Part shown: positions 2,828-63,409 of the stretch, piece by piece
Position numbering within the stretch: position 1 is the first letter of the stretch
Layout: each line of letters starts with the position of its first letter
DNA from: Streptomyces sp. 11x1
GTDB taxonomy: Bacteria; Actinomycetota; Actinomycetes; Streptomycetales; Streptomycetaceae
Direction of reading: 5' to 3'
DNA: 64,000 nucleotides
NCBI RefSeq assembly: GCF_032598905.1
Contig: NZ_CP122458.1
Location: 8,271,001 to 8,335,000, forward strand
Notes under the pieces: model-generated
What the model was told of the DNA's origin: nothing
The model's database searches: none
Seen by the model: only the letters and a program-made list of their open reading frames with translations
Translations under genes and position numbers: made by a program

Positions 2828-3662
2828 GGGTCTCCGTCTCGTCTCGATCGCCGTCCCGCAGGAGATGACGGTGGGCGTCGGCCAGGTCGAACAGGCCTTG
2901 CACGCTGCCGGTGTGCGGAGCCGCCGCCGAGCTCTCCCCGGCGTACGTCTCCGTCGGCACGGTGGTGATGGGGGTGCCGGAACCGGGGCGGCCGAGCAGG
3001 ACGGCCGCGGCCACGGCCGCAGAGGCGGGCAGGTCCGGGACCGGGCGGCCGTGGTCCGCGGACAGCTCCCGGTGCACGGCGGCCCATCGCTCGCCGCCGC
3101 CCAGTTCCACGCCCACCACCAGGACCCGGTCCAGCTCCGGGTCCTCCAGGAGGAGGTCGGCCATCGCCAGCAGCTCGGTCACCGGGTCGTCGAGCGTGGA
3201 CAGGCTGAACATCTGCCCGGTGATCCCGAACTCCCGGCTGAGGTGCCCCAGCACGGAGTTGGCGGTGGCCTGCATGAACAGCAGCGGGTTGTGCACCCGG
3301 CCCGAGACCACTCGTCGGCTCGCCAGATCGGCCGTGGTGGTGTCGCCCATCAGGCTCGCCAGCGCGACGGCCGTACGGGAGCCCTCCCCGCTCTCGGCCT
3401 CGCCCGAGCGGGAGGTGCCCCCACGGGGACGTGCGGTCAGGCACCGCGCGGCGACCTCGTACACCAGCGGGCTGAACGCCGACTCCACGAACCCGGGCAG
3501 GCGCGGCAGCGGGATGTCGCCGTCCCGCCCGGTCCCATGGGTCGCGGTGGCGGCGGCCAGGACCCCGAGCGCCGGACGCGACGCCGTCACGCCGGTCGCC
3601 GGGGTCTCGGTCCGGTCGGCAGCCCGGGTCTCGGCTTTCCTTTCCAGGTCCGTCTCCGTCAC
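2814..3662 (-). CDS. Stand-alone ketosynthase-like (Ketoacyl-synt_2 type) partner protein
   Basis: A 282-residue protein starting at GTG 3662, whose GTGA overlaps the stop of the ketosynthase gene. It has thiolase-fold features (SPLVYEVAARCL, LLFMQATANSVLGHL, LDRVLVVGVELGGG) but lacks the His-containing second half of a full ketosynthase. It has no TACxS nucleophile motif, because a Gln-Ala-Thr-Ala stretch occupies that site. Proteins of this kind (beta-ketoacyl synthase N-terminal-like, single domain) occur beside true ketosynthases in aryl polyene and related type II systems and are thought to act as a chain-length or structural partner. The gene order KS then KS-like supports a heterodimer. 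About 50 N-terminal residues are low-complexity linker. Confidence 0.7.
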   Translation of the reverse strand: MTETDLERKAETRAADRTETPATGVTASRPALGVLAAATATHGTGRDGDIPLPRLPGFVESAFSPLVYEVAARCLTARPRGGTSRSGEAESGEGSRTAVALASLMGDTTTADLASRRVVSGRVHNPLLFMQATANSVLGHLSREFGITGQMFSLSTLDDPVTELLAMADLLLEDPELDRVLVVGVELGGGERWAAVHRELSADHGRPVPDLPASAAVAAAVLLGRPGSGTPITTVPTETYAGESSAAAPHTGSVQGLFDLADAHRHLLRDGDRDETETHAHQ

Positions 3663-5047: not shown

Positions 5048-5360
5048 GCGTTCCCGCCGCGCCCAGGAACTCCGTGAGCCGCCGGAGCGAGGTCAGGTCG
5101 GAGATGTCCTCGTCGCCGGGCTCCACGACCAGGCCGTACCGCTCCTCCACCACATGCAGCAGCCACACCAACCCCAGCGAGTCCAGGACCAGTTCGGCGT
5201 CCTCGTCGAGATCGTCCGGGACGCCGGGGAAGATCTTGCGGTCGGACAGCAGCTCCCGGACGAGACCGGTGGTGAGGACGGCCGGGGCGCCGGCGGCCGA
5301 CGGGGACGCGCCCCGCGCGGCCGCTTCCGTGACGGACGACGTCGAGGTCTCCGCGTTCAT
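5010..5360 (-). CDS. Acyl carrier protein (first of two)
   Basis: A 116-residue ACP with the phosphopantetheine attachment serine in LVLDSLGLVWLL (about residue 61). The C-terminal helices have the acidic character of an ACP. The first 25 residues are Ala/Ser-rich and probably disordered, which makes the protein longer than a typical 80-90 residue ACP. Its ATG overlaps the stop of the upstream ACP gene by 4 bp and its 3' end runs into the ketosynthase gene. Having two unequal ACPs next to two ligases suggests that one carries the activated starter acid and the other the extender or growing chain. Confidence 0.85.
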   Translation of the reverse strand: MNAETSTSSVTEAAARGASPSAAGAPAVLTTGLVRELLSDRKIFPGVPDDLDEDAELVLDSLGLVWLLHVVEERYGLVVEPGDEDISDLTSLRRLTEFLGAAGTHEAADGGERVGR

Positions 5361-5632
5361 GCCTTCGCCCCGCGCCCGACGACCTCGGCGACGAGCCCGC
5401 CGAGGGTCAGCGAGGCCAGCGGCTCGATGTCGGCGTCCGGGATCTCCACGCCGAACCGCGATTCCAGCCGCAACGTCAGCTCGATGAGACTCAGGGAGTC
5501 CAGCTCAAGACCGCCGACGGTCACCGGGCTCTCGTCGGTGATGCCGTCCCGGCTCAGCAGGATGTTCATCTCGTCGATGACCGTGGTCAGGACGAACTCG
5601 CGGATCTCGTTGTCCAGGGTGGACGTGCTCAT
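5357..5632 (-). CDS. Acyl carrier protein (second of two)
   Basis: A 91-residue ACP with the attachment serine in LELDSLSLIELTLRLE and the typical four-helix pattern ending LASLTLGGLVAEVV. Two candidate ATGs exist, at 5641 and 5632. The only GGAG lies directly against the first ATG but 9 bases before the second, so the start at 5632 (MSTSTLD) is preferred. It is the first gene of the ACP-ACP-KS block and lies 84 bp downstream of the aryl ligase gene. The partner ACP (5010-5360) overlaps it by ATGA. Confidence 0.85.
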   Translation of the reverse strand: MSTSTLDNEIREFVLTTVIDEMNILLSRDGITDESPVTVGGLELDSLSLIELTLRLESRFGVEIPDADIEPLASLTLGGLVAEVVGRGAKA

Positions 5633-5716
5633 GATCGCCATCTCCAGGGGGAATGTCGTGAGAAGGTCGTGCGAAAACTCATCGGGGCCGTTCGCCCGGG
5701 GCTGTCTGCCGAGCCG

Positions 5717-7135
5717 TCACGCGCCGCCGCTCGCCGCCGCCTGGAGCGTCGCAGCCCGGCGGACCAGCTTCCCGTTCGACGTGCGGGGCAGGTCCTCCAG
5801 CAGCCGGATCACCCGGGGCAGCTTGTAGTCGGCCAGCCGCTCCCGGCACCAGCGCAGCAGCTCCTCCACCGACGGACTCCCGGCCCCGGCGGCGAGGGCC
5901 ACGTACGCCTCGGTGACGTCCTCGTGGACCAGGACCGCCTGCTCGACGGCCGGGTGCGCGCGCAGCACGTGCTCGACCTCGGTGAGGTCGACCTTGAGGC
6001 CGCCGATGACGACGAGGGAGTCGGCGCGTCCGCCCACGGTGACCGTCCCGTCGGCGCCGACCGCCGCCCGGTCACGGGTGTGCAGCCAGCCGTCGGTGTA
6101 CTGGGTGCCGCCGGAGTCGAAGAGGTACGGCGACTCGGCGAGCGCGACGTCCAGTTCGCCCTTGTGCGCGCGGACCACCACTCCCGGCGCGGGCCGGCCC
6201 ACGGAGGGGCGCAGCGTGCCGCCGACGTCGATGGCGACGATGCCGGTCTCGGTGGTGCCGTAGGCCTCACCGACCATGACGCCGTACCGTTCGGCGAACC
6301 GCGCGGCGACCTCGGGAGGCATCAGCTCGCCGCCGGAGACGGCGGTCCGCAGCGTGGGCAGCGCGGGCGGATCGAGGGCGGACGCGAGCAGTTCGTAGTG
6401 CATCGGCACCCCGAACAGGGCGGTGATCCGGTGGTCGAGGGAGGTCCGCAGGATGTCGCGGGCCGAGACCCGGGGCGCGAAGACGACGGACACCCCGGCC
6501 GCCAGCGCGTGCAGCAGTCCGCCGACCAGCCCGAAGCTGTGCGCGGTGGAGCTGAGCAGCAGCAGCCGGTCGCCCTCGACCGGCATCCCGGCAACCGCCG
6601 CGAACGACTCCAGCTCGGCGGCGATCGACCCGGCACTCCGGCCGATCACCTTCGGCCGCCCGGTCGACCCCGAGCTGAACTGGACCAGCCGGTGCCCGCC
6701 GTCGGCCGCCCGCCCCGCCCTGCGGCACTCGGTGGCGACCTCGTACTCGGACCGGAAGCCGAACGCCGCCCGGACGTTGGCGCCGGCCCGGACCATGAAC
6801 TGCGGCCGGCAGACGGCGCACAGCGCGTCGACCTCGGCGGGCTTCAGCCGGAAGTCGAACAGCATCACCTGCGCGCCCAGCCGCCACAGCGCGAGCAGGA
6901 CCTCGACCTGGGTGAAACTGGGCGGGGTCCGCAGCCCCACCGTGCTGCCGGGGCCGATGTCGTAACCGGCGAAGACGGCGGCCTGCTTGGCCACCCGCTC
7001 CCGTAACTCCCCGCGGGTGACAGTCTCCCGCTGGTGCGTCAGATAGGGCAGACCGTCGTCCCGCGCGTCGAACAGCCGCTGGACCAGGGCACCCATCCCG
7101 TCCTCGTCGGCCGCGGCCGCCACGAGCTCGCCCAT
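5717..7135 (-). CDS. AMP-dependent aryl/acyl ligase of the aminohydroxybenzoate operon
   Basis: A 472-residue adenylating enzyme: FSSGSTGRPK (A3, about residue 153), EAYGTTET (A5), YTDGWLHTRD (A7) and LPRTSNGKLVRR (A10 with the catalytic Lys) are all present. It is separated by 6 bp from the dehydroquinate synthase-like gene. In manumycin-type pathways a ligase next to the GriI/GriH pair activates 3-amino-4-hydroxybenzoate and loads it on an ACP. The same role is inferred here from context. Substrate-pocket residues were not analysed, so the acid specificity remains open. The start at 7135 is an ATG (MGELVAAAADEDG). Confidence 0.85.
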   Translation of the reverse strand: MGELVAAAADEDGMGALVQRLFDARDDGLPYLTHQRETVTRGELRERVAKQAAVFAGYDIGPGSTVGLRTPPSFTQVEVLLALWRLGAQVMLFDFRLKPAEVDALCAVCRPQFMVRAGANVRAAFGFRSEYEVATECRRAGRAADGGHRLVQFSSGSTGRPKVIGRSAGSIAAELESFAAVAGMPVEGDRLLLLSSTAHSFGLVGGLLHALAAGVSVVFAPRVSARDILRTSLDHRITALFGVPMHYELLASALDPPALPTLRTAVSGGELMPPEVAARFAERYGVMVGEAYGTTETGIVAIDVGGTLRPSVGRPAPGVVVRAHKGELDVALAESPYLFDSGGTQYTDGWLHTRDRAAVGADGTVTVGGRADSLVVIGGLKVDLTEVEHVLRAHPAVEQAVLVHEDVTEAYVALAAGAGSPSVEELLRWCRERLADYKLPRVIRLLEDLPRTSNGKLVRRAATLQAAASGGA

Positions 7136-7141
7136 GGGGTC

Positions 7142-8332
7142 TCAGACCTCCTTGCAGAACTCGCCGATGGGCAGGCCCACATGGCGCTTGTCCTGGGCCA
7201 GATACCCGAGCAGCTCGTCGCCGGTCCGCAGCTCGGTGACGTTGAGGACCTTGCCGCCCGGCCCGAGGACCCGCACATGCCAGTCGTCCTGCACGGTCAG
7301 GCTCACCAGCCGCCCGTCCTCCGCGTGGGTGCGGATCTCCAGCAGCGGCCGGGACTCCAGCTTGGCCCGCCCGACCACCACGCGCCGGGTGCGGCCGTCG
7401 GCGCCGACCGCCAGCAGGGCGCTGCCGGAGCCGACCTCGCTGAGGTAGTTGGTGCGGTTGTCGGGGCCCAGCGTGTACGAGTGCAGGGCACCGGCGTTGA
7501 CCCGGAAGGGCCGGGTCGGCATGTACGGCAGCGGGTGGGTCTCGCTGCAGCAGAGCACGAACCCGGAGGAGTACGAGCCGACGAGGATGCCCTCGTCCTC
7601 CTCGAAGTGCGAGCAGGTGTCCACGCAGACCCGGTCGCCGAGCCCGACGTGCCGGATGCTCTCGACGGTGAGCGTGGACAGCTCCAGCTGCGGGGTGGTC
7701 GCCTCCAGCAGCCGGGCCAGCGCGAACACGTCGTCCGCGCTCCGGGGGGTGAACAGGATGCCGTCCGAACCGCGTTCGAGGACGTCGAAGACGATGGCCG
7801 CCTCCTCCAGGTCCCCGACGACGGTCACCAGCTTCCCCTCGGCCGACTCGGCCGCCGCGAGCACGATCTCCAGCGGGATCTTCGTCGGGTCGGCGAAGTG
7901 GATCACCGTGTACGGCAGTGCCATCGCGCCCACGCACGACAGCTGGAGGGTCCGGTCGTCCCGTACGTCGACGAAGCCGGCGACCGGGGTGCCGCTCGCG
8001 GCCCGGTTCTCGGCGGCGAGGGCGTCCAGCTCGTCCTGGGCGGTGAACTTCCGCAGCAGCAGGTCGACTCCGGCGCCGGTGGGGATCTTGTCCGCGGGCT
8101 TGGCGTCGGCCGCGGCCCTGGCCTCCTTGTCACCCTTGTCGGCGGGCTTCTTCGCGGGCACGGCGGCCGGCGCTCCGCCCGCCAGCACCCGGGTCACCGT
8201 CGGCGGCAGCGTCCCCAGCAGCTCGGCGTCGGCGGAGACCACCCCCGCCATCCGGGCGTGGACGGCCGCGTCCACCACCGCCTGGAGCTGCGGACGGGGG
8301 ACTTCACGGAGATCGATCCACGCGAACCTCAT
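7142..8332 (-). CDS. 3-dehydroquinate synthase II family enzyme (GriH-like aminohydroxybenzoate synthase)
   Basis: A 396-residue homologue of archaeal-type dehydroquinate synthase II (MJ1249/GriH family). It starts MRFAWIDLR and contains the family-typical blocks DGILFTPRSADDV, GDRVCVDTCSHFEEDEGILVGSYSSGF and PFRVNAGALHSYTL. In the GriI/GriH route the enzyme converts the C7 product of the aldolase into 3-amino-4-hydroxybenzoate. Its ATG at 8332 overlaps the aldolase stop (ATGA), so the two are made together. A lysine/alanine-rich segment at about residues 55-85 is an insertion relative to the conserved core. Function is assigned from family plus the paired aldolase. Another amino-aromatic or aminoshikimate-like product is possible. 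Confidence 0.85.
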   Translation of the reverse strand: MRFAWIDLREVPRPQLQAVVDAAVHARMAGVVSADAELLGTLPPTVTRVLAGGAPAAVPAKKPADKGDKEARAAADAKPADKIPTGAGVDLLLRKFTAQDELDALAAENRAASGTPVAGFVDVRDDRTLQLSCVGAMALPYTVIHFADPTKIPLEIVLAAAESAEGKLVTVVGDLEEAAIVFDVLERGSDGILFTPRSADDVFALARLLEATTPQLELSTLTVESIRHVGLGDRVCVDTCSHFEEDEGILVGSYSSGFVLCCSETHPLPYMPTRPFRVNAGALHSYTLGPDNRTNYLSEVGSGSALLAVGADGRTRRVVVGRAKLESRPLLEIRTHAEDGRLVSLTVQDDWHVRVLGPGGKVLNVTELRTGDELLGYLAQDKRHVGLPIGEFCKEV

Positions 8333-9183
8333 GCGACACCTGCCACGATCGTCGAGTAGGGGGAATGGGTCGTGCCTGTATGCGCCATGTTCATGCCATC
8401 CAGAGTTTGGCCCGCATCGCCGTTCCCCTTCCCGTGCACCACGGCGGCGAGCCGGGACACCAGGGAGGCGGGGGAGGCGGAGGAGAAGACGCGGCGGCCG
8501 ACGGCCAGACCGCGACAGCCGGCGGCCATCACGGCGGTGCCGTACTCGATGAGGTCGGAGCCGTCGGGCGGGCCGCCGGCGGCGAGGACGGGGATGGGGC
8601 TGTGGGCCACCACCTCGGCCATCCGGTCGAGCGGCAGGGCCACCGAGGTCTTCACCATGTCGGCGCCCAGGTCGGCGGCGACGTTCACGATGTGCGCGAG
8701 GAGCGCGGGATCGTGCGGATTCTCGATCCGGGGGCCCCGGGGGTAGACCATCGCGATCAGCGGCATGCCCCAGGTGTCGCAGGATCGGGCCACCGCGCCC
8801 AGGTCGGCGAGCTGACGCCCCTCGGTGTCCGAGCCGATGTTCACATGGACGCTGACCGCGTCGGCGCCGAGGGCCACCGCCTCCTCCACGTCGCCGACCA
8901 GCACCTTGGCGTCGACGTCGGCGGAGCAGGTCGTGCTGGCGCTCAGATGCACCACCAGCGCGCAGTTCCTGAGGAGGGCGGGGTCGAGGGTGCGGGCCCG
9001 CCCTTTGTGGACGACGATCCCGTCGGCGCCGCCGGCCACCAGAGCCTTCAACAACTCTTCCCACTGACCCGGAGGAGCGACCGGACCGTCCGAGACACTG
9101 TGGTCGAGCGGTATCAGCAAATGCCGGTCGTCACCGGCCAGGGAAAGCCTTCTCCAACGTAATGGCTTGCCACTTTTCAGCAT
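8329..9183 (-). CDS. Class I aldolase, 2-amino-3,7-dideoxy-heptulosonate synthase type (GriI-like)
   Basis: A 284-residue DhnA/FbaB-family aldolase. LIPLDHSVSDGP near the N terminus and ADMVKTSVALP (the Schiff-base lysine strand) match the family, as does the late AGGPP phosphate-binding loop. Partners in this family condense dihydroxyacetone phosphate with aspartate semialdehyde to give the precursor of 3-amino-4-hydroxybenzoate. Two in-frame ATGs are present at 9204 and 9183. GGAAGG lies 7-8 bases before the second, and nothing ribosome-binding lies before the first, so 9183 is chosen. It is the promoter-proximal gene of the minus-strand operon. Confidence 0.85.
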   Translation of the reverse strand: MLKSGKPLRWRRLSLAGDDRHLLIPLDHSVSDGPVAPPGQWEELLKALVAGGADGIVVHKGRARTLDPALLRNCALVVHLSASTTCSADVDAKVLVGDVEEAVALGADAVSVHVNIGSDTEGRQLADLGAVARSCDTWGMPLIAMVYPRGPRIENPHDPALLAHIVNVAADLGADMVKTSVALPLDRMAEVVAHSPIPVLAAGGPPDGSDLIEYGTAVMAAGCRGLAVGRRVFSSASPASLVSRLAAVVHGKGNGDAGQTLDGMNMAHTGTTHSPYSTIVAGVA

Positions 9184-51192: not shown

Positions 51193-51198
51193 GGTGCC

Positions 51199-51339
51199 TG
51201 TCCAGGTGCGAAGGCAGGACCTACTTCCACTCATAATGGGGCGGCCGCGGGTTCGAGTCCCGCCACCGGTACCAACTCGCCGGTGTAGCTCAGGGGTTAG
51301 AGCACCTACGTCGGTTCCGCCGGCTTCGATCTCTGGACA
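51199..51339 (+). ncRNA. yrlA1: Y-RNA-like RNA 1 (YrlA) with circularly permuted tRNA-like module
   Basis: Terminal stem TGTCCAG/CTGGACA (51199-51205 with 51333-51339). Next come the Ro-binding strand GGTGCGAAGGCAG (51205-51217) and, opposite, GCCGGCTTCGATCT (51319-51332). Helix pieces GGC/GCC, GGA/TCC and CC/GG are separated by a bulged A and a bulged T. The module that follows has T-arm GCGGG-TTCGAGT-CCCGC (51247-51263), acceptor strand CACCGGT, then ACCAACTC, then the opposing strand GCCGGTG (51279-51285), and D-arm GCTC-AGGGGTTA-GAGC (51288-51303). The 3' half precedes the 5' half, the arrangement known for bacterial YrlA RNAs. A hairpin TTCCA-CTCATAA-TGGGG (51225-51241) mimics a CAU anticodon arm. 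The Ro60 gene lies downstream. Confidence 0.85.
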
Positions 51340-51355
51340 CCCAAAGCTTTACGCA

Positions 51356-51383
51356 CCTCCCGGTGCGACACGATCTCGGGAGG
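51356..51383 (+). other. Stem-loop between the two Y RNAs
   Basis: CCTCCCG (51356-51362) and its complement CGGGAGG (51377-51383) enclose a 14-base loop. It may end or process YrlA-1 or mark the start of YrlA-2. There is no T-run. Confidence 0.45.
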
Positions 51384-51397
51384 CGCGGCAGATGGTG

Positions 51398-51549
51398 GGT
51401 GCCCGGTGCGAAGGCAGCGGATACTTCGGGAACTGGTGGGGACGACTCCTCGTGCGGGTTCGAATCCCGTCATCGACCCAGGGTCGGTGTGGCGGAACGG
51501 AAGACGCGCCAGTTGATAAGCGCCGTCGCCGAATTCGACCTCGGGCCCC
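51398..51549 (+). ncRNA. yrlA2: Y-RNA-like RNA 2 (YrlA) with permuted class II tRNA-like module
   Basis: The terminal stem GCCCG/CGGGC (51401-51405 with 51542-51546) extends outward by two G-C pairs. The same Ro-binding strand GGTGCGAAGGCAG appears at 51405-51417, with GCCGAATTCGACCT (51528-51541) opposite. The helices GGC/GCC and CGG/CCG again have a bulged A and a bulged T. An anticodon-stem equivalent AACTGG/CCAGTT (51431-51436 with 51509-51514) joins the Ro stem to a long variable arm (GGGG-ACGA-CTCC). T-arm GCGGG-TTCGAAT-CCCGT, acceptor CATCGAC, loop CCAGG, GTCGGTG, and a leucine-tRNA-like D-arm (GCG-N10-CGC) follow. All tRNA halves are permuted as in YrlA. It may be processed from a common transcript with YrlA-1. 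Confidence 0.85.
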
Positions 51550-51669
51550 TTCCCTCTGCCGCGCCTCCCCCAGAAATCAGACATCTGAAGGTCGATATCC
51601 GAAACCCGGTATCGGAACAGGAATTCCACGCACGAAGTCCGAAGTGCTGAAGAATTCGGGGGATTCATC

Positions 51670-53256
51670 ATGGCGCGATTCAACACGAAGGCAGGCAAGG
51701 CGCAGCCCACCTCCCGGGTCACCTCGACGGGGCGAGTGCTCCGTACGTACGAGGGCGGCCGGGGCCGTGAGCGGGACGAGCGCTCGGAGCTGTTCCTGCT
51801 CTCGCTCGCCAACTTCGTCGCGCAGAAGACCTTCTACGAGAGCGGCGAGGACCGCGACGACCGGTTCGCCGCGCTCGTACGCCGACTCGCCGTCACCGAC
51901 CCGGTGTGGACGGCCGGCCTGCTCGGCTGGCTGCGCGGGGAGGGAAACCTCCGTACGGCCTCGATCGTGGGCGCCGCCGAGTACGTGAAGGCACGGCTCG
52001 ACGCGGGCGTCACCGACGGGCCCACCAACCGCCAGGTCGTCGACTCGGTCCTGCGGCGCCCGGACGAGCCCGGCGAGCTGCTCGCCTACTGGACCTCGCG
52101 GTACGGGCGCGCCCTGCCCAAGCCCGTGAAGCGGGGAGTCGCCGACGCCGTACGACGGCTCTACCACCCCAAGTCGCTGCTGAAGTACGACACCGCGTCC
52201 AAGGGCTACCGCTTCGGTGACATCCTGAACCTGGTGCACGCGGCGCCGGACCCGGCCAAGCCGTGGCAGGGCGACCTGTTCCAGTACGCCCTCGACCGGC
52301 GCCACAACCCGGACACGGCGGTCGTGCCCAGGTCGCTGCCCGTGCTCGCGGCACACCGTGACCTGATGGAGCTGCGGCCCGCGAAGCGGCGCAGGGTCGT
52401 GACCGGCTCGGGGGGCGCCCAGCGGCTCGCGGACGCGGGCATCACCTGGGAGGCGCTGGCCGGTTGGCTGCAGGGGCCGATGGACAAGGCGGCCTGGGAG
52501 GCCGTCATTGCGTCCATGGGGGCCATGGCTCTGGTGAGGAACCTGCGGAACTTCGACGAGGCGGGCGTCTCCGACGAGGTCGCGGCCCAGGTGGCGGCGC
52601 GGATCAGTGACCCGGCGGAGGTCGCGCGGTCGCGGCAGTTCCCGTTCCGTTACCTCTCGGCGTACCGGCACGTACCCTCGCTGCGCTGGGCGTACCCGCT
52701 GGAGCAGGCGCTCGGCCACTCGCTGGCCAACGTCCCCGCGCTCCCGGGCCGGACCCTGGTCCTGGTCGACCGCTCGGGTTCGATGTTCTACTCGCGGTTG
52801 ACCGACCGCTCGTCGCTCACGTACGCCGACGCGGCGGCGGTCTTCGGCACGGCGCTCGCGCTGCGGGCGGCCGACGCGGATCTCGTCGAGTTCGGGAGCA
52901 CGAGCCGGGCGGTGAGGTTCGGCGCGGGCGAGTCTGTGCTGAAGATCATCGGCCGCTTCGGCGACCTGGGCGGCACCGACACCGCCGAGGCCGTCCGCCG
53001 CCACTACAAGAAGCACGACCGGGTGCTGATCGTCACCGACGAACAGGCCACCTACAGCCACTACGGCGACCCGACCGCGCAGGTGCCGGCCGACGTCCCG
53101 GTCTACACCTGGAACCTCGCAGGGTACCGGGCGGGCCACGGCCCCTCGGGAAAGGCGAACCGGCACACCTTCGGCGGTCTCTCGGACGCCGCCTTCCGGA
53201 TGGTTCCGCTGTTGGAGGCGGCACGGGACGCCGACTGGCCGTGGGCGGTGGAGTGA
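51670..53256 (+). CDS. rsr: Ro60 orthologue (Rsr), TROVE and vWA domain RNA-binding protein
   Basis: 528 residues. The N-terminal two thirds are the TROVE ring of helical repeats (ELFLLSLANFVAQKTFYESGEDRDDRFAALVRRLAVTDPVWTAGLLGWLRGEGNLRTASIVGAAEYV, cited in part; RRVVTGSGGAQRLADAGITWEALAGWL). The C-terminal vWA domain has the MIDAS sequence LVLVDRSGSM near residue 367, with TDTAEAVRRHYKKHDRVLIVTDEQATYSHY later. Ro proteins hold misfolded RNAs and Y RNAs and in bacteria can direct PNPase. The cognate Y RNAs are the two YrlA genes just upstream. The ATG has GGGGGA 7 bases ahead. Confidence 0.94.
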   Translation: MARFNTKAGKAQPTSRVTSTGRVLRTYEGGRGRERDERSELFLLSLANFVAQKTFYESGEDRDDRFAALVRRLAVTDPVWTAGLLGWLRGEGNLRTASIVGAAEYVKARLDAGVTDGPTNRQVVDSVLRRPDEPGELLAYWTSRYGRALPKPVKRGVADAVRRLYHPKSLLKYDTASKGYRFGDILNLVHAAPDPAKPWQGDLFQYALDRRHNPDTAVVPRSLPVLAAHRDLMELRPAKRRRVVTGSGGAQRLADAGITWEALAGWLQGPMDKAAWEAVIASMGAMALVRNLRNFDEAGVSDEVAAQVAARISDPAEVARSRQFPFRYLSAYRHVPSLRWAYPLEQALGHSLANVPALPGRTLVLVDRSGSMFYSRLTDRSSLTYADAAAVFGTALALRAADADLVEFGSTSRAVRFGAGESVLKIIGRFGDLGGTDTAEAVRRHYKKHDRVLIVTDEQATYSHYGDPTAQVPADVPVYTWNLAGYRAGHGPSGKANRHTFGGLSDAAFRMVPLLEAARDADWPWAVE

Positions 53257-55360: not shown

Positions 55361-57091
55361 ATGCAGCGGCATCGCCACGGTGAGAATCCCTGGCGCGTCA
55401 GAGTGGACGACGACAGCGGTCGGCCCCGTGGAGCCGGCGTCCTCCTGGACAGTCGGCACGTGCTCACCTGCGCGCACGTCGTCGCCGAGGCCGGGGCCTC
55501 GCCGGACAGCGCCGACGCGCATGTCCGCGTCACGAGCGCCGTCTGCCGCCCGGAGTGGAGCGTCACGGCACGGATCGAGCCGGGCGAGTGGGTGTACCGC
55601 AACCGCACACGACGCGGCGACGTCGCCCTTCTCCGGCTCGACGACCCGGCGCCGTGCGACGGCGGCACCCGGCTGTGGCAGGCCCCCGTCTCCGGCGGAA
55701 GGGTGCGGGTGTACGGCTTCCCGCGCCTGGAGGAGAACGGCATCGGTGTCGACGCCGAAATGGCGGGCTCCGGCTCCCGGGAGGGCGAGTGGGCCCAGCT
55801 GAACCCCGTGCACGGCGGTCGGCCGTGGATCGAACAGGGCTTCTCCGGCTCGGGCGTCGTGGCCCTCGACGGCGACTTCGCCGGCCGTGTCGTCGGCATC
55901 GTGGTGGCCGACTTCGTCGACGGTGACGCCAGAGCCGCGTGGATGCTCCCGACCGAGACCGTGCGCGGCTATCTGCCCGGCCTCGAACCGTATGTGCAGG
56001 GCGCGCCGACCACCTGTCTGCTCCCGGCCGGCGCCACACCCCCGCACCAGGGGCTGGACGACCCCCTGCGCCTCACCCTCACCCAGGAACTCGTCCGTCT
56101 GCTCAGCGGCGAATGGTCGGGCACCGTGGTGCTGACCGGCGGCGCCACCGAGACCGGCACATCGTGGCTGGTACGGCTCGTACGCACCGCGGACCCGGTC
56201 GCACGCGCCGCGATCTCGGATCTCGAACTGTCCACGGCCCCGCGTCACACCGTCCTGCGTCTCGGTTCCGTCGACGCGGCGTACGACGCCCGGGGCAGAA
56301 CGACGGCACAGGTCCGGCACTATCTCGCCGACCGGTTCGGTTTCCCCCACGACGCCGCCGACCTGCTGCACCGGCTGACGCACCGCACCCCTCCCGTCTG
56401 TCTCGTCCTCGCCAGGGTGGACCGCTCCGCCGAGCCGGAGTCGCTGCTGCGCGACCTGCTGAGACCGCTCGCGCTGCGGGCCCGGACCCGTGGTGTCCGG
56501 CTCGTCCTCGGGTTCGACGCGGGGCCGCCGCCCGGTCTGCCGTACGAGGTCGCGCTCGGCTCGGACATGATGGACGACCACGTGGACGAGGGCCCGCCCG
56601 AGGCCGTGCCGCGCGAGGACGCCTGTGAAACCGTCGAACGGCTCAGCGGCGCGGAGGACGACGCCTCCACCCTGTACGCGCGGTGGGGGCTGAGCTTCCT
56701 CCGCTCGCCACGGCTGCCGCCGCGCCGCGCCCCGCAACTGCGCGTGCGGCTCGCCGTGGCGAAGGGCCCGGGCGCGCACGCCGAACTGGCGGCGATCGCC
56801 GCGGCGGCCCGTTCGGCGCTGCGCGAGGTGGCGGGTGCCGAACGGGAGCTGGGGCGGCTCGTCGGCCGGTACGACGACCTCCTGCACGAACTGGAAGTGC
56901 ACCGGGTACGGGCCCGGGACGCGTTCGGCGCCGAGGACGCCGACCTCGCCGCGCGGTACGGATCGGCGGCCGGACCGCTGCGCACCGTGCCGGTCGACCT
57001 CAAGGCCGCGCGGACCGCCGTCGCACAGTACCGGGACGAGGTCCACCGGCGGATCGAGCAGGCCAGGAGGGACAGCCGTGGAGAGGTGTGA
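55361..57091 (+). CDS. Trypsin-like serine protease with degenerate P-loop region and coiled-coil tail
   Basis: 576 residues, cytoplasmic (no signal peptide). Residues 1-205 are a chymotrypsin-fold protease with His39 (VLTCAHVV), Asp87 (GDVALLRLDD) and Ser162 (EQGFSGSGVVAL). Residues about 235-420 resemble a STAND/AAA-type NTPase, but the Walker A equivalent reads GGATETGTS, lacking the lysine, and VCLVLARVDRS is a Walker B-like strand. Residues 455-576 are helical (AAARSALREVAGAERELGRLVGRYDDLLHELEVH). Proteins of this plan lie in NTP-regulated conflict-type loci. It overlaps the kinase gene by 14 bp and is the first of six coupled genes. Confidence 0.8.
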   Translation: MQRHRHGENPWRVRVDDDSGRPRGAGVLLDSRHVLTCAHVVAEAGASPDSADAHVRVTSAVCRPEWSVTARIEPGEWVYRNRTRRGDVALLRLDDPAPCDGGTRLWQAPVSGGRVRVYGFPRLEENGIGVDAEMAGSGSREGEWAQLNPVHGGRPWIEQGFSGSGVVALDGDFAGRVVGIVVADFVDGDARAAWMLPTETVRGYLPGLEPYVQGAPTTCLLPAGATPPHQGLDDPLRLTLTQELVRLLSGEWSGTVVLTGGATETGTSWLVRLVRTADPVARAAISDLELSTAPRHTVLRLGSVDAAYDARGRTTAQVRHYLADRFGFPHDAADLLHRLTHRTPPVCLVLARVDRSAEPESLLRDLLRPLALRARTRGVRLVLGFDAGPPPGLPYEVALGSDMMDDHVDEGPPEAVPREDACETVERLSGAEDDASTLYARWGLSFLRSPRLPPRRAPQLRVRLAVAKGPGAHAELAAIAAAARSALREVAGAERELGRLVGRYDDLLHELEVHRVRARDAFGAEDADLAARYGSAAGPLRTVPVDLKAARTAVAQYRDEVHRRIEQARRDSRGEV

Positions 57092-59354
57092 CCGGTCCGA
57101 CTGCGGCGTCGGCACGATCGACGAACACGGGTTCTGCGGCGTGTGCGCCCTGCGTCCGCTGCGCCGGTTCGGGCCGCCGACGTCCATACCGGCGCCCGAG
57201 CCGCCCCAGCTTCCCGGGCCCGTCGGCGAAAGTACGGCGGCGGTCGTGGTCCCGGAAGAGGCCGGACAGCTACCCGGCGGCGTGGCGGTGGCCACCGCCG
57301 TGGAGGAGGCCGGACGGTCCCCCGGCGACGACCCGGCGGTCGGCGCCCCCGAAGAGGCCGAACAGGTTCCCACGGCACCCTGGTGGGGACTGGACCTGGT
57401 GGACACGGAGTGCGCGCGGCCCGCACCGGACGCCCCGGGAGCGGACCGGCCCGACAGGGACGCGACACCGGGCACCGAGGAGCACGACCCCTGCCCGAAC
57501 CCGACCTGCGGCGCCGCAGGCCGCGGGGACGAAGACCCGGGAGGCCGGCACCAAGGCCAGGACCCGGGCCACTGCACCGTCTGCCGCGCTCCGTCCGATC
57601 CCGCCTCGGGACCGCACGGCCGGACCCTCGCCGACCGTTACGTCGTCAAGCGGATGCTCGGTGCCGGTGCGTTCGGGAAGGCGTACCTCTGTCACGACCA
57701 CAACCTCAACACGGACGTGGTGCTCAAGGTCCTGCAGGAGTCGGTCGCGAGGACGGCCCGCGAGGAGCGCAACGCGCTCGTCGGACTCCGCCACGACAGC
57801 ATCGTCCGCATTCTCAGCTACGAGCCCCAGGGCCCCTACCTGGTCCTCGAACACATCCCCGGCACACGGTTCGCCGCACGGCACGGCGACTCGCTGGAGC
57901 TCCTCCTGGCACACGGCCTGCGCATCCTCCAGGCACTCGACTACCTGCACGCCCGCCAGTTGCTGCACTGCGACGTGAAGCCGTCGAACATCATCCGGTT
58001 CACCGAGAAGGGCGACACCGCCGCCCACGACCGGGTGCGTCTCATCGACTTCGGCGCCGTCCGCTCCATGAAGGACACCCACCCGCTCGTCGCCTTCACC
58101 GCGACCTACGCCCCGCCGGAGCGTCACCCGGGCACGGGCGAACCCGACCCCGAGCACGACCGCCCCACGGCGGGCCTGGACCTGTACTGCCTGGGCAGCA
58201 CGCTCCAGGAAGTGTGCCGGAGCCATCTGCGCGCCGGCCCCCAGGACATCCCCGTCGACTCCCTGAACCGGTTGCTGCGCCGCGCCACTCGCGTCGATGC
58301 GCCGGAACGCCGCTTCACCTCCGCCCGCCAGTTCGCGGAACAGCTCAGCGGTGTGATCCGGCAGGTCGTGGCGGCAGCACCGAGGAGCCGGCGGTGTGCG
58401 CGGGTCTCGGTGCAGTTCGGATCCATGACCGAGCCGCTGCACGGAGGACTCGGGGCGGCGCGCCCCCTCCGGCACTGGGTGGACGCACGCATAACCCCGG
58501 ACGGAGCCTGCCGGCTCGGGGCACCCTTCGCCCCGCCCACCCGGCTGGAGATCATGGCGGCCCTGCCGCCCCCGCCCCCCGACCCCTACCACCGGCGCAC
58601 CGGGGACCGGGCCCGGCTCGCACTGGACGCCTGCCACGACGCGCTGCGGCGGGGCGAGACGACCGAGGCGGAACGGCTCCTGTCCGACGCCGCCCTGCCC
58701 GAGTGGGACTGGCCGCACCACTGGTACGCCGGTCTCGTCGCCCTCGCCCACGACCGGCCACGGGCCGCGGCCGACCACTTCGAGAACGTCCGGGACCTGC
58801 TGCCGGGCGAACTCGTCCCGTTGCTCGCCCTCGGACTCTGCGCGGAACGCGACGACCGGCTCGCGGCGGCCCGGACGTACTACGAGGCGGTGGTCCACAC
58901 GGCTCCCGCGCTCGGCGCCGCGAGTTTCGGCCTCGCCCGGGTGCTGCTGCGGGAGGGGCACCGCGCGGACGCCGTGGCCACGGCGGAGCGGCTGGCACAG
59001 GAGTTCCGCTTCGAGCGGACGGCGGGGATCGCCGCGGTACGCCTGCGGGTCGCCCTGACCACTACCAAAGCCCCGCTCGAACTCGGCCCCGGCGACGTGG
59101 AGTCGGCCGACAGCGCACTGGAGGATCTGGTCATCGGCCACAACGAGCGGCTCGGTGTGCGGGCGGAGATCGCGTTCGCGCAGTACGCCGTGTCGGGCCG
59201 GCCGCAGGGCCTCTCCGAAGCCGTGCGGGACCTGGCGCCGTACGCCGAGGACCGGCACGACCACCGGGATCTCGTCGACCTGGCGAACCGCCTGCGTCCC
59301 CCGATCAGGTGGCCTTGGTCCCGACTCGCACCCAGGAGACGGCGGACGACCTAG
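57078..59354 (+). CDS. PknG-like serine/threonine protein kinase with two Cys4 zinc motifs and TPR tail
   Basis: 758 residues, nearly the length of mycobacterial PknG. Two cysteine clusters precede the kinase: C4-C9-C20-C23 and C139-C144-C166-C169, probably zinc or iron ribbons replacing the PknG rubredoxin. The kinase has GAGAFGKAYLC, Lys217 (VVLKVLQ), a non-RD catalytic loop HCDVKPSNII (His297-Cys298-Asp299) as in PknG, and IDFGAVR. The post-kinase segment SVQFGSM...LPPPPPDPYHR resembles the PknG linker to its TPR domain (about 520-740). The start is GTG 57078 behind AGGAGGG. It is coupled to the trypsin gene. Confidence 0.85.
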   Translation: MERCDRSDCGVGTIDEHGFCGVCALRPLRRFGPPTSIPAPEPPQLPGPVGESTAAVVVPEEAGQLPGGVAVATAVEEAGRSPGDDPAVGAPEEAEQVPTAPWWGLDLVDTECARPAPDAPGADRPDRDATPGTEEHDPCPNPTCGAAGRGDEDPGGRHQGQDPGHCTVCRAPSDPASGPHGRTLADRYVVKRMLGAGAFGKAYLCHDHNLNTDVVLKVLQESVARTAREERNALVGLRHDSIVRILSYEPQGPYLVLEHIPGTRFAARHGDSLELLLAHGLRILQALDYLHARQLLHCDVKPSNIIRFTEKGDTAAHDRVRLIDFGAVRSMKDTHPLVAFTATYAPPERHPGTGEPDPEHDRPTAGLDLYCLGSTLQEVCRSHLRAGPQDIPVDSLNRLLRRATRVDAPERRFTSARQFAEQLSGVIRQVVAAAPRSRRCARVSVQFGSMTEPLHGGLGAARPLRHWVDARITPDGACRLGAPFAPPTRLEIMAALPPPPPDPYHRRTGDRARLALDACHDALRRGETTEAERLLSDAALPEWDWPHHWYAGLVALAHDRPRAAADHFENVRDLLPGELVPLLALGLCAERDDRLAAARTYYEAVVHTAPALGAASFGLARVLLREGHRADAVATAERLAQEFRFERTAGIAAVRLRVALTTTKAPLELGPGDVESADSALEDLVIGHNERLGVRAEIAFAQYAVSGRPQGLSEAVRDLAPYAEDRHDHRDLVDLANRLRPPIRWPWSRLAPRRRRTT

Positions 59355-59402
59355 AAAGATCGTGCAAGCGGCGGCTCCTTGGCTGCCTTGTGCTGGGGGG
59401 AC

Positions 59403-60827
59403 ATGACTTCGGGGGACATGAACACGAGGACGACGGCCACGGGGGCGACACCCGGGCTGCGCTTCACCATCGAGACGGACGTGGCCGGTGACCTCGCGCA
59501 CGACGCGCAGCGGGCGGACGCCCTGGTCACCGTCCGCGGCGAGCCCGTCGCGGGCCGGACCGCCGACGTGCCGCTCGCCGAGGTCCTCGTGATGGACTGT
59601 TCGCTCTCGATGGCCGACGCCGGAAAGATCGGGGCGGCTAGACAGGCCGTCTGCGCCGCCGTCGACGCCCTGCCGGACCACACGTACTTCGGCGTCGTCG
59701 CCGGCACCCACGTCGCCCGGAACGTCTTCCCGCCCCCGCCGGAGCACGGGCTGGCCGTCGCCGGCCCCGCGACCAGACAGGCCGCGAAGCGCCGGATCAG
59801 CGCCCTGTGGGCCGAAGGGGGTACGGCGATCGGCCGCTGGCTGACCCACACCGCCGACCTGCTGGAGTCGGCACCCTCACAGGCCGTGCGCCACGCCTCG
59901 CTCTACACCGACGGCAGGAACGAACACGAGACCCCCGAGCAGCTGGAGCGTGCGCTGGCCGGCTGCGCCGACCGCTTCGTGTGCGACGCGCGGGGACTGG
60001 GCGACGACTGGAGCTACACCGAACTGCTGCACATCACCCAGACGCTGCACGGCAGCGCGAGGGCCGTCGACGCGAGCTCCCTCACGGACGACCTCACGAC
60101 GCTGGTACGGCAGGCCCAGCGTCTGGTCGTCCCCCGGGTCTACCTGGGCCTGCGGCTCGACAGCCGCTTCCGGCTCGCCTCCGTGCGCCAGATCCGTCCG
60201 GTCGAAGCCGAGTTGACGGGGCATCAGCAGCGTGACGGGGGCCTCCTGCACATTCCCCTCGGTTCCTGGGGCGCCGCGCACCGGCAGTACCGGCTGTCCC
60301 TGCGGTTCGCCGCCCCCTCCCTGCCCGTCGGCGAGGAACTGCGCGCCGCCCATATCGAACTCCTCGCGGAGACCTCCACCGGTGAGCGCGCACGCTGCGC
60401 GGACGCCAGGGCGATGGTCGTACGACGGCACACGACCCGGGACCCGCTCCCCGCCCGGCCCGAGGAACTCACCCGCGCGGAGAACGCGCACGAACTGGGC
60501 CTGGCCATGCGCGGCTGCGCCAACGCCCACGGACGAGGGGACCTCTTGGAAGCACATCAGGAACTGCGCCACGCGCTGGCGCTCGCACATGACCTGGACG
60601 ACAGCGCACGCGTACGGCTGCTGGAGAGCGTCGCGATCAGGGACGACCACGGCGAGGTCCTGCTGCGGCCCGACGTCACCCGGGGCGAGATGCAGCGCGT
60701 CGGTCTCGAATCGACGTACCGAGCCGCAGCGCCGACCGGGCCGGGGGAACCGGTCGACGCCCTGCCGCCCCCACGTCCCGACAGCCGCGAGGACGCGGAG
60801 CGGGGGACGGGGGCGGGGGCGTCATGA
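59403..60827 (+). CDS. vWA-domain protein
   Basis: 474 residues. A cytosolic von Willebrand factor A domain has a complete MIDAS start, VLVMDCSLSM (D65, S67, S69), and later LWAEGGTAIGRWL (metal-binding Thr) and HASLYTDGRNEHE. The second half is a beta-sandwich-like and helical region without a named domain (about 220-460). vWA proteins of this kind act as adaptors in trypsin/kinase or MoxR systems. ATG 59403 is used; ATG 59418 has equally weak ribosome signals. Its stop overlaps the ATG of the membrane gene. Confidence 0.85.
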   Translation: MTSGDMNTRTTATGATPGLRFTIETDVAGDLAHDAQRADALVTVRGEPVAGRTADVPLAEVLVMDCSLSMADAGKIGAARQAVCAAVDALPDHTYFGVVAGTHVARNVFPPPPEHGLAVAGPATRQAAKRRISALWAEGGTAIGRWLTHTADLLESAPSQAVRHASLYTDGRNEHETPEQLERALAGCADRFVCDARGLGDDWSYTELLHITQTLHGSARAVDASSLTDDLTTLVRQAQRLVVPRVYLGLRLDSRFRLASVRQIRPVEAELTGHQQRDGGLLHIPLGSWGAAHRQYRLSLRFAAPSLPVGEELRAAHIELLAETSTGERARCADARAMVVRRHTTRDPLPARPEELTRAENAHELGLAMRGCANAHGRGDLLEAHQELRHALALAHDLDDSARVRLLESVAIRDDHGEVLLRPDVTRGEMQRVGLESTYRAAAPTGPGEPVDALPPPRPDSREDAERGTGAGAS

Positions 60828-61777
60828 CGGTACGGCTGGACGAACCGACGTCGTCCGACGCCCGAGCGCACCCGGTCGAGGTGCTGCGGCGGCTACGGAA
60901 CGGCGTGCTGGCCTGTATCGCGTTCGTGGCCGTGGCCGTGGTGGCGGTGGGGACGGAAGCCATGATCAACAGCATTGCCGCGGAGAGGACGGAGCAGTCG
61001 CGGAGCAATATCCGCAGAGCGACGACCGCGGCCGAACGGGCGAGGGACGAGCTGAGGCTGAGCTTCGCGAACGGCAACGTGATTCTCACGGGCACCGGGT
61101 CGGGCTTCGTGAACAAGATCGGCGAGGCGAACACGGCCATCGCCCTGGCCATGGAAGGCAACACCACGGGCAAGGAGGGACGACGGAACTTCCAGTTCGT
61201 GCTGGGGCAGTTGGCCACCAGCGTCCACCTCGCGGACATCGCCGCCCAGCAGTACGACCGCTTCCCCGCCGGGGAGGAGCACAGGCAGGAAGTCGCCCGG
61301 TCCGCGTTACAGGCCATGGAGGCCGACGACGAGACCTATCGACGCCAGTCGGACGGGGAGAGCGTGGCGGTGCCCTACACCGGCGGCCTGATCCCCGCCC
61401 TCGACGCACTCGGGGATTTCCAGAAGGCGCAGGCGCAGCGGCAGCGACCCGACTGGGTGGAACCTCCGGTGCTGCTGTCGCTGTTGCTGGGACCCGCGCT
61501 GGTCCAGCTGATCCTGGCCTGGGTCACCGCACGCGTGCTGGCGACGCACTTCCGGCGGTGGGTGAGCCCGATGCTCGGCGCCTCGCTCCTGATCACCTTC
61601 GCCGTCGCGGTCCTCGTCTGTGCCCAGGGCCCCCAGTACGGCGACGGCCACGTTCTCACCCAGCAGAGCTATGCGATGGTCATGCCGGTGCTGCTCTCCC
61701 TGCTGGCCGCCGCCGCCGTGCTGGCGCACCGCGCCTACGGCCCGCGTCTGGCCGAGTACCGGTTCCCGGCGTCATGA
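60824..61777 (+). CDS. Four-TM membrane protein with extracytoplasmic sensor domain (GlnX-like topology)
   Basis: 317 residues: TM1 (GVLACIAFVAVAVVAVGTEAMI) followed by about 165 extracytoplasmic residues of helical four-helix-bundle character (AERTEQSRSNIRRATTAAERARDELRLSF, GRRNFQFVLGQLATSVHLADI). TM2-TM4 (VLLSLLLGPALVQLILAWV, ASLLITFAVAVLVC, VMPVLLSLLAAAAVLAH) end the protein. This topology and its position beside a PknG-like kinase and a solute-binding lipoprotein parallel GlnX of the mycobacterial GlnH-GlnX-PknG pathway. Sequence similarity to GlnX was not tested. It is coupled by ATGA on both sides. Confidence 0.7.
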   Translation: MTVRLDEPTSSDARAHPVEVLRRLRNGVLACIAFVAVAVVAVGTEAMINSIAAERTEQSRSNIRRATTAAERARDELRLSFANGNVILTGTGSGFVNKIGEANTAIALAMEGNTTGKEGRRNFQFVLGQLATSVHLADIAAQQYDRFPAGEEHRQEVARSALQAMEADDETYRRQSDGESVAVPYTGGLIPALDALGDFQKAQAQRQRPDWVEPPVLLSLLLGPALVQLILAWVTARVLATHFRRWVSPMLGASLLITFAVAVLVCAQGPQYGDGHVLTQQSYAMVMPVLLSLLAAAAVLAHRAYGPRLAEYRFPAS

Positions 61778-63039
61778 GGGCGATGGGGGCGCGGCTCGCT
61801 CGATGTGCCCTGGCCCTCGGCCTGTTGCTGGGCCTCTCCGGCTGCGCGGAGAAACCCCGGCGCACCGTCACGATCATGGTGCCGTGGGGAGGGGCCGAGT
61901 TCAGCGCGTTCCAGTCGATCATCTCGGCCTACGACGAGGACCACGGTGAGATCGAGGTGCTGGTCCAGGCCACCCGCGCGCTGGACCAGCACCTCGACTC
62001 CGCGGCGAAGAAGGCCAACCGGCCCGATCTGGTGGTTCTCCCCAGCCTCGGCTCCATCCGGCGCTATGAGCCTGTCCTGCAGCCCATCGAGAACATTCCG
62101 GCGTCCCGATTCCGGGAGCCCTTCAGGCCACCTGCGAAGGGCGATGGCCTCCTGGCCGTTCCGGTCAAGGTCGATGTCAAGTCCCTGATCTGGTACGACC
62201 CCGCCGTCGTCGGGGCGCGCCCCGTATGGCGGTCGGCGGTGCGCGCCGAGCACGGTGCCCCGGGCGGGAGTTGGTGCCTCGGGATGGAATCGGGGGCGAC
62301 ATCGGGCTGGCCGGGCGCCGACTGGATCGCCGACATCCTGCTCTCCGGAGACGGGGGGAAGGAGATGTACGAGGAATGGCTCCGCGGCCGGCTCTCGTGG
62401 GAGTCACCCAGGATGAGCGCGGCGTGGCGCGAGTGGGGCGAGGTGGTTCGCGGCACCTCGCGCGACGCGTCGGTGAAGAACTTCACCGACGTCGCCATGG
62501 AGATGTCCGGCGTCGACCGCACCTGCGACCTCGCGCACGGTGCGCTCGGCGCGCTGCGCTCTCCGACCGCCTCCCTCGTGGCGGAGAACTACGCGTTCAC
62601 GGCCCCCGCGAAGGACGTGCCCGTGCAGGTGTCGGCCGACTACATCGCCATGTTCACAGCGAACGAGGACACCAGGAACCTGGTCGCCCATCTGGCCGAC
62701 GCGACCACCCAGCGCCGCTGGGTCGGCGGCGAGGGCAGTTCGGCCTTCTCCGCCGTCCGGGGGGTCATGCCGCCCGAGAAACCCCGGGACGCCCAGCGAC
62801 TCGTCGCCGGGATCCTCCAGGACGACGCCCGCACCCTCTGCTTCAGCGCCGCCGACACGATGGCCCCCGAGCTGGCAGCGGCCTTCTACCGCGCGGTCGT
62901 CGACTACTTCGTCCACCTGCGCTCGGACCGGAAACAGGAGGTGCTCGCCGAGCACCTCAAGGCGCTCGACAGGATCAGCGCCGACCTGAAGCCCGCCGAG
63001 CGGCCGGACACCACCGCCAAGTTCTGCACCGCCCCCTGA
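61774..63039 (+). CDS. Extracellular solute-binding lipoprotein (SBP family 1-like)
   Basis: 421 residues. Lipoprotein signal MGARLARCALALGLLLGLSGC with the lipobox LSGC (Cys24). The mature part has VTIMVPWGGAEFSAFQSIISAYDEDHGEIEVLVQATRALDQHLDSAA and VVLPSLGSIRRYEPVLQPIE (cited in part), the start and hinge of a UgpB/MalE-like binding protein. No ABC permease or ATPase is near, so it is likely a sensor that presents a ligand to the membrane protein encoded immediately upstream rather than a transport component. This is the same logic as GlnH for GlnX, although GlnH belongs to a different SBP family. Confidence 0.8.
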   Translation: MRAMGARLARCALALGLLLGLSGCAEKPRRTVTIMVPWGGAEFSAFQSIISAYDEDHGEIEVLVQATRALDQHLDSAAKKANRPDLVVLPSLGSIRRYEPVLQPIENIPASRFREPFRPPAKGDGLLAVPVKVDVKSLIWYDPAVVGARPVWRSAVRAEHGAPGGSWCLGMESGATSGWPGADWIADILLSGDGGKEMYEEWLRGRLSWESPRMSAAWREWGEVVRGTSRDASVKNFTDVAMEMSGVDRTCDLAHGALGALRSPTASLVAENYAFTAPAKDVPVQVSADYIAMFTANEDTRNLVAHLADATTQRRWVGGEGSSAFSAVRGVMPPEKPRDAQRLVAGILQDDARTLCFSAADTMAPELAAAFYRAVVDYFVHLRSDRKQEVLAEHLKALDRISADLKPAERPDTTAKFCTAP

Positions 63040-63061
63040 ACCGAGCCCGAGAAAGGCCCTC

Positions 63062-63409
63062 ATGTCAGACGTCGTGACCTTTTCCCTCGCCGACGGAACA
63101 ACCGTCGCCGTGGCGCCCGCCAACAGCCGTGTCGGTACCGGGGCCGTCGGACTGGGCGACCGGCTGCAGACCGCCGAGCAGAGCCTGCGGGAGGCGCTGG
63201 CACCGGTGACCGCCGCGGCGGCCGAGATGATGGACGGCTTTCGGCAGGCCGGCCGGCGGCCCGACGAGGTGGAGGTCGGCTTCGCCGTCACGCTCGACAG
63301 CAAGCTCGGCGGTGTCATCGCCAGCGCCAAGGCCACGGCCCACCTCAACGTCAAACTCCGCTGGACGGCTCGGCCCACGGCCCCCGAGCCGGGCGCGGCC
63401 GGCGGCTGA
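63062..63409 (+). CDS. Trypco1-type (CU044_2847 family) trypsin-co-occurring small protein
   Basis: 115 residues. The late block PDEVEVGFAVTLDSKLGGVIASAKATAHLNVKLRW matches the pattern I know for the trypsin-co-occurring domain 1 (evevefG.kl..e.G.iia...a.an..v.l.W). The N-terminal half (TFSLADGTTVAVAPANSRVG, LQTAEQSLREAL) is a beta hairpin plus helix. Its role is unknown. It usually accompanies trypsin-like proteases, which is what is found five genes upstream. It closes the operon after a 22-bp gap with a GAAAGG ribosome site. Confidence 0.8.
   Translation: MSDVVTFSLADGTTVAVAPANSRVGTGAVGLGDRLQTAEQSLREALAPVTAAAAEMMDGFRQAGRRPDEVEVGFAVTLDSKLGGVIASAKATAHLNVKLRWTARPTAPEPGAAGG

Follow-up and report, generated by a model that had tools for sequence, protein, structure and literature searches.

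An accessory PknG-type locus of Streptomyces with a sugar-type binding protein and an HtrA-like protease: a candidate receptor-kinase-protease pathway

What does a cytosolic protease do beside a PknG-like kinase and the gene for a binding lipoprotein, and do such neighbours act together? This question is raised by six consecutive genes, here called A to F, at 55361-63409 of the window, by which we mean the whole 64,000-nucleotide stretch analysed (Streptomyces sp. 11x1, contig NZ_CP122458.1, positions 8,271,001 to 8,335,000). All six lie on the forward strand and code for a cytosolic trypsin/HtrA-like protease protein (A, 55361-57091, 576 aa), a PknG-like non-RD Ser/Thr kinase with a PknG TPR domain and a GTG start (B, 57078-59354, 758 aa), a cytosolic vWA protein (C, 59403-60827, 474 aa from an ATG; the start is uncertain, with TTG 59379 and ATG 59418 as alternatives), a GlnX-like membrane protein (D, 60824-61777, 317 aa), a sugar-type (family 1) substrate-binding lipoprotein (E, 61774-63039, 421 aa) and a Trypco1 protein (F, 63062-63409, 115 aa). 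A and B overlap by 14 bases, C and D as well as D and E by 4 bases, and 22 bases separate E from F; the largest gap, 48 bases between B and C, applies with C started at ATG 59403. Gene calls, together with Pfam labels for A, B, C and F, place the genes where the first-pass annotation had put them; no Pfam family scored above its cut-off in D or E.

The same annotation had read the genes as one functional unit, and had named a gene order limited to close strains as the finding that would speak against it. Indeed, the order is conserved: it recurs in dozens of loci, many of them with different flanks, which bears out the unit, takes the arrangement beyond chance and rules out chance neighbours. 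A search of 293 genomes of the order with an E profile found at least 79 places, spread over 77 genomes, that scored no less than 168 bits, with the next match at 145 bits; the places were counted by hand, and with at most six candidates scored per genome their number is a lower bound. We read 72 of the 79 places; of the other seven (G062, G082, G087, G244, G304, G066 and G269), six have a window-like A 4.5 to 6.5 kb upstream according to their search positions. The arrangement A-B-C-D-E was found in 53 loci, A-B-D-E in four, B-D-E only in 14 and C-D-E only in one, and the protease gene is present in 57 of the 72, counts that do not represent independent events as the loci are related. In the four A-B-D-E loci (L101, L107, L198 and L206) A and B form a single reading frame, and D and E do so in six loci (L080, L087, L096, L197, L205 and L207). 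The three-gene form comprises L168, L170, L172-L178, L180, L181, L183 and L185, to which the contig-cut L197 is added; since the latter starts inside the B frame at a contig end, it tells nothing on A there. In a set of 55 loci, C is present in 53, including L106, where it overlaps its neighbour by 88 bases.

Relatives of A at E<=1e-20 occur in at least 78 of the 293 genomes, and at least 11 genomes hold a window-like one (above 850 bits), again lower bounds with at most four candidates scored per genome; the weaker hits include other systems, for example a VMAP locus (L110). In a sample of the phylum, A was found at E<=1e-15 in 6 of 396 genomes, all from the own genus. Among 26 loci from named Streptomyces genomes, the nearest of which is that of S. 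caniscabiei (A 96% identical), 22 hold A-B-C-D-E in order, two (L054 and L055) agree as far as their short contigs read, and L076 carries shortened A and B frames ahead of C-D-E-F. Furthermore, the distances of A to E across loci correlate at 0.84-0.98 within types, as computed from gene calls after dropping duplicates or near-copies (L034, L035 and L052) and other or cut loci (L043, L102 and L103).

Several observations concern the DNA around the operon. Upstream of A (L053-L076 and others, e.g. L074:9891-10000), 23 of 24 window-type loci, some of which are close relatives, have a TANNNT box whose end lies 5-7 bases ahead of the ATG start codon, compared with 0.14 expected from shuffles; the window is the exception. 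The position of the box suggests a leaderless promoter for A. A CAAC-N17-24-GTTG inverted repeat lies within the last 60 bases before A in 14 of the 24 (0.06 expected), and the last 45 bases are 64% identical between loci versus 33-34% further up (17 loci). In Streptomyces sp. MNU76 (L077), a decayed copy is reduced to 63 N-terminal residues of A (97% identity), a fragment of E, and F; its left flank is that of the window (TROVE, GntR, PLP enzyme), so that it represents a natural deletion of the operon. At 51196-53256 of the window, the TROVE (Ro60-like) gene is preceded at 395 bases by a tRNA-Met gene. Bacterial TROVE genes often have tRNA-like Y RNA nearby; Rfam returned nothing at its cut-offs. 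On the reverse strand, a run of genes at 1136-9039 codes for AMP-ligases, a ketoacyl synthase and a 3-dehydroquinate synthase II, which we take to be, possibly, a secondary metabolite cluster of aminohydroxybenzoate type.

Where does this set of genes come from? Here the first-pass annotation needs correction: the closest relative turned out to be the PknG locus in its full actinobacterial form, which already contains a vWA protein. Relatives of C were found in 49 of 61 genomes, at 50% identity or more in only five, the window's included, and among 20 such places read there were nine core PknG loci, ten accessory loci and one kinase-vWA fusion. This fusion (L043:7840-10728, from another family of the order) is a 962-aa protein that joins a Ser/Thr kinase domain to a vWA of the PknG-locus type, and similar long frames exist in related genomes. 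The order GlnX - SBP_3 - coiled coil - PknG - PP2C - vWA - FHA was found in all nine core loci of the order, in L032 by Pfam. The window genome carries PknG_TPR three times, namely in the window, in a second accessory locus (L042, 4.48 Mb) and in the core locus L032 (6.86 Mb). Among 118 genomes sampled from the class, 28, eight of which belong to the own genus, contain PknG_TPR; among the 20 PknG loci read outside the order, all seven core genes are found in five (L154, L155, L156, L160 and L162), with GlnX and the binding protein at the opposite end in L154 and L155, while L165 and L166 have a weakly labelled or unlabelled gene at the coiled-coil position, L148-L150 have GlnX, GlnH and PknG consecutively, and the remainder hold other parts. 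The seven-gene loci outside the order show that the vWA and coiled-coil proteins are part of PknG loci well beyond Streptomyces. As judged from their sequences, the six genes are an accessory paralogue of this locus, with a sugar-type sensor and with FHA and PP2C gone; labels for these two are absent from the accessory loci surveyed together with the nine core loci, and in this survey FHA occurs only in the latter.

The kinase and the vWA protein make this homology plain. B matches Pkinase (7.3e-25) and PknG_TPR (PF16918, 3.3e-29) in Pfam, its best solved relative is PknG (2pzi, 9.7e-38), and the core profiles match 60/60 accessory B and 57/58 accessory C. In all 56 accessory B with letters there (one further row is gapped), the catalytic Lys, the HxD Asp and the DFG Asp are retained and the RD position is occupied by Cys or Gly, which confirms the earlier non-RD assignment. 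PF16919, the rubredoxin-like family of PknG, is matched in core PknG and unmatched in B, yet Cys pairs precede the B kinase domain and the alignment to 2pzi begins in this region. C is labelled VWA_3 (3.1e-9), is homologous to the core-locus vWA, and preserves its MIDAS almost throughout, with Ser, Ser and Thr in 52/53 and both Asp in 53/53. For D, the GlnX label given at first pass does not stand on the window protein alone (NCBIfam GlnX E 0.012, 14.8 bits versus a cut-off of 250) but does at the family level: an HMM from nine core GlnX sequences matches 17 of 55 D proteins at E<1e-3, as well as all three D-E fusions included in the test, whereas nothing else reaches E<=1. The window D itself stays below the threshold of this HMM and is linked to GlnX through its family; read by eye, it has four hydrophobic segments.

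At the extracellular end, the resemblance to the canonical pathway stops. The known role of PknG signalling is to sense amino acids and to adjust the TCA cycle, and the core GlnH (SBP family 3) HMM matches no E, from which it follows that the binding protein was exchanged. Several relatives of E are named alpha-glucoside or CUT1 binding proteins, its predicted model (pLDDT 82.5) is nearest to AcbH and glucose-binding proteins, and the best natural solved relative found by its profile is again AcbH (9e-10). Hence, the analogy to GlnH-GlnX-PknG drawn in the first-pass annotation holds for the chain of lipoprotein binder, GlnX-like protein and PknG-like kinase, which family HMMs and the conserved order support, but not for amino-acid sensing, the sensor being of the sugar type. 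The lipobox Cys24 is present in 45/45 aligned E sequences, window included; a crude pattern finds a lipobox in 26/55 E, a count affected by uncertain called starts and by fused E without a signal of their own. An ABC transporter can be discarded, as the operon has neither permease nor ATPase and the "transporter" names of E relatives are given by homology only.

The protease protein provides the link in the other direction. A carries a Trypsin_2 domain (1.3e-11) with an intact active triad in an HtrA fold, followed by a middle region and a helical C-terminal domain. The latter (residues 475-571, 56783..57073) is common to A and the coiled-coil protein of the core PknG locus: an HMM built from nine core coiled-coil proteins finds this C-terminal part in 43 of 66 A proteins at E<1e-5 (1.8e-6 in the window A) and hits none of 1055 other genes at E<10. 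In terms of sequence, A is thus the coiled-coil domain of the core PknG locus fused behind a protease domain and a degenerate P-loop-like region. This region (residues 235-400, 56063..56560) is predicted to alternate strands and helices and sits at the position of a P-loop NTPase domain; since no Pfam family matches there, its reading as an NTPase would be an inference, and the Foldseek and VIA lists for A, which are full of proteases, are uninformative on it. The P-loop, described as inactive at first pass, is indeed degenerate in the window copy, and the motif is without Lys in 19/19 aligned A sequences; GxGK is present in 12 of 57 A proteins. Pfam found no PDZ domain in the A proteins scanned, the window A included, and no VMAP domain was matched at E<=1 in 19 A proteins or in six further ones.

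F is the only Trypco1 match in the genome (PF19493, 3.8e-21), and its family follows the protease. Of the 57 loci with A, 37 have either Trypco1 or Trypco2, whereas none of the 15 loci without A has one (Fisher 2.8e-6, or 5.8e-6 without L197, values to be read with the relatedness of the loci in mind), and the two never occur together in the 72 loci. Trypco1 is present in 21 of 25 window-type (type I) loci and Trypco2 in the type II locus L042; in the other 20 of the 57 A loci, the stretch read shows no recognisable Trypco. Hence, Trypco goes with the protease and not with the receptor. Passages of PMC7159879 describe Trypco1 and Trypco2 as neighbours that trypsin domains of VMAP systems have one at a time, an exclusivity that holds in the accessory loci as well, and Trypco proteins are also treated, in part of PMC10907252, within DGR-linked conflict systems.

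We rate as somewhat better than an even chance the reading that all this is an accessory receptor-kinase-protease pathway from the GlnH-GlnX-PknG locus, with sugar as input and proteolysis as output. Here E, for which the operon holds no permease, would bind a sugar-like ligand outside the cell and act on D, and D would control B, presumably at its TPR domain. This relay is carried over from the model given in passages of PMC9769921, where ligand-bound GlnH acts on GlnX, a protein with four TM segments that is proposed to contact the TPR domain of PknG. B would be in complex with A via the coiled-coil domain common to A and the PknG locus, a complex that the vWA protein C may help to hold; as output, the protease domain of A would cleave a cytosolic target, with F as adaptor, regulator or first substrate. 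We place the protease at the kinase because A contains the core PknG-adjacent coiled-coil domain, forms one frame with B in four loci and lies directly before B; the protease-kinase connection proposed at first pass is thus upheld by conserved order, fusions and a PknG-locus domain inside A. We infer that control runs from the kinase to the protease and not the other way round. Going further, and with a confidence clearly short of even, an extracellular carbohydrate might, through a binding protein and a membrane relay, let a PknG-type kinase directly gate an HtrA-like protease inside the cell, with interchangeable Trypco adaptors that conflict systems also use, leading to a committed response such as arrest, development or death. 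Against the favoured reading count the 14 of 72 B-D-E loci, the 20 of 57 A loci without Trypco, a zinc ribbon that Pfam does not recognise in B, the locus L164 without protease and the loss of the triad in L171, the last two taken up below.

Kinase phylogeny bears on how far the protease is needed. In a quick tree of 65 kinases and a careful tree of 48 picked from more (omitting L042, L073 and the A-B fusions L198 and L206), the careful one has a 100/100 branch between the accessory kinases of the order and all core-type kinases in it, those of mycobacterial type among them. It includes five B-D-E kinases, which all fall inside the protease-bearing type II, so that protease and vWA were lost there, and in this subclade the kinase pathway has an output of some kind that needs neither A nor C; in this respect, the earlier placement of the protease in the kinase pathway has to be qualified, as it is dispensable in one subclade. 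Outside Streptomycetales, L164:4897-12159 combines a coiled-coil protein (266 aa), PknG, vWA, a GlnX-like protein and a sugar-type binding protein without protease. Its kinase groups with the core-type kinases in the careful tree although its E is sugar-type, and once L164 is taken in, a single origin of all sugar-type PknG kinases is rejected (p-AU 0.0006). Either receptor and kinase can be recombined, then, or the receptor was exchanged more than once. Both the nested B-D-E loci and L164, where receptor, kinase and vWA do without protease, would suit a nutrient or glycan sensor whose output is carried by the kinase, the protease only trimming or removing pathway parts to end the signal, and canonical PknG indeed works, according to passages of PMC9769921, by phosphorylating an FHA protein. 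However, FHA or PP2C labels are absent from the accessory loci surveyed with the core loci, and A is both present in most loci and the gene that is fused to the kinase, which leaves this alternative improbable.

We consider it equally unlikely that the genes form a conflict system, in which E would sense an invader or a damaged wall and trigger proteolytic arrest or death. The first-pass annotation had leaned towards such a defence or programmed response, and parts of PMC7159879 name Trypco1 and Trypco2 as trypsin partners in VMAP ternary conflict systems; a locus of the same group, L110, indeed has a trypsin, VMAP-C (6e-44), AAA_5 next to the VMAP gene (bpMoxR 25.9 bits, cut-off 27) and Trypco1. 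The distribution is also patchy and accessory (E in at least 77 and window-like A in at least 11 of 293 genomes), and the decayed copy L077 exists. Yet no MoxR, VMAP-C or toxic effector is recognised in the operon, the sensor is sugar-type, and E does not exceed the other subunits in variability (mean distance 0.57 versus 0.53-0.66). A PADLOC scan of 134 genes, made up of two window genes and 132 flanking genes (a chosen part of 177, which omit seven loci), gave no family with more than three members among the first 25 families listed at E<=1e-10, with no control set. Single hits among the matches listed in the PADLOC and Pfam flank scans include DrmD, DpdE and GajB-like helicases, along with two DDE transposases; there is no clear sign of a defence island, the absence of enrichment being an impression formed without a control set. 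When the six proteins themselves were compared with PADLOC, B appeared through its kinase domain in the best 25 of 32 families, A weakly through its protease domain and E at 0.031; C, D and F had no match, and none went beyond a shared kinase or protease domain. Altogether, nothing favours defence beyond the Trypco-trypsin pair and the patchiness, and that part of the earlier proposal is not supported. That the protease domain is a mere scaffold whose catalysis is unimportant is very improbable, since the triad is intact in 55 of 57 A proteins, with one more cut by a contig end, although L171 (A at L171:3488-5236), in which T-G-H replaces H-D-S, still keeps B to E.

Returning to the receptor-kinase-protease pathway, we found no account of this operon in a literature search by titles, abstract openings and some passages (most subscription papers and all bioRxiv preprints lie outside its scope), in keeping with the first-pass view that the combination is not previously described. 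Passages of PMC1262709 mention an S. coelicolor kinase with a solute-binding domain and a Pseudomonas kinase-vWA protein, which are not this arrangement. If the loci act as their anatomy suggests, Streptomyces would have adapted the PknG chassis so that it responds to sugar and acts through a protease, and a bacterial Ser/Thr kinase would then be coupled directly to a protease inside the cell, which would be unusual; Trypco1 and Trypco2 would gain a testable setting outside MoxR systems, and vWA and coiled-coil proteins would be shown to be widespread parts of PknG loci.

In comparison with known systems, A differs from HtrA/DegS in being cytosolic and in that coiled-coil and P-loop-like regions take the place of the PDZ domains of HtrA proteins. 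The VMAP-MoxR-vWA ternary systems, as presented in parts of PMC7159879, share with the operon a trypsin-type peptidase beside Trypco1 or Trypco2 and a vWA protein; the operon, in contrast, has a PknG-type kinase and an extracellular binding protein in place of a MoxR ATPase and VMAP-C, which rules out VMAP or iSTAND membership, and Pfam matches no AAA family in any of the six proteins. With the full PknG locus (L032 and others) it shares a homologous kinase, vWA, GlnX and coiled-coil domain, whereas that locus has PP2C and FHA, is without protease, and carries a kinase from the other side of the 100/100 branch. Finally, GlnH-GlnX-PknG-OdhI/GarA of mycobacteria and corynebacteria likewise has adjacent genes for a binding lipoprotein, a GlnX-like protein and a PknG kinase with TPR, a type also represented by L148-L150 (GX-H3-B loci); compared with it, the window operon has a sugar-type binding protein, a shorter GlnX and no FHA substrate in the locus, and contains protease, vWA and Trypco in addition. 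A duplicated PknG pathway in some Streptomyces thus seems to have swapped its sensor for one of the sugar type and its usual output for a protease, giving what looks like a new signalling system.
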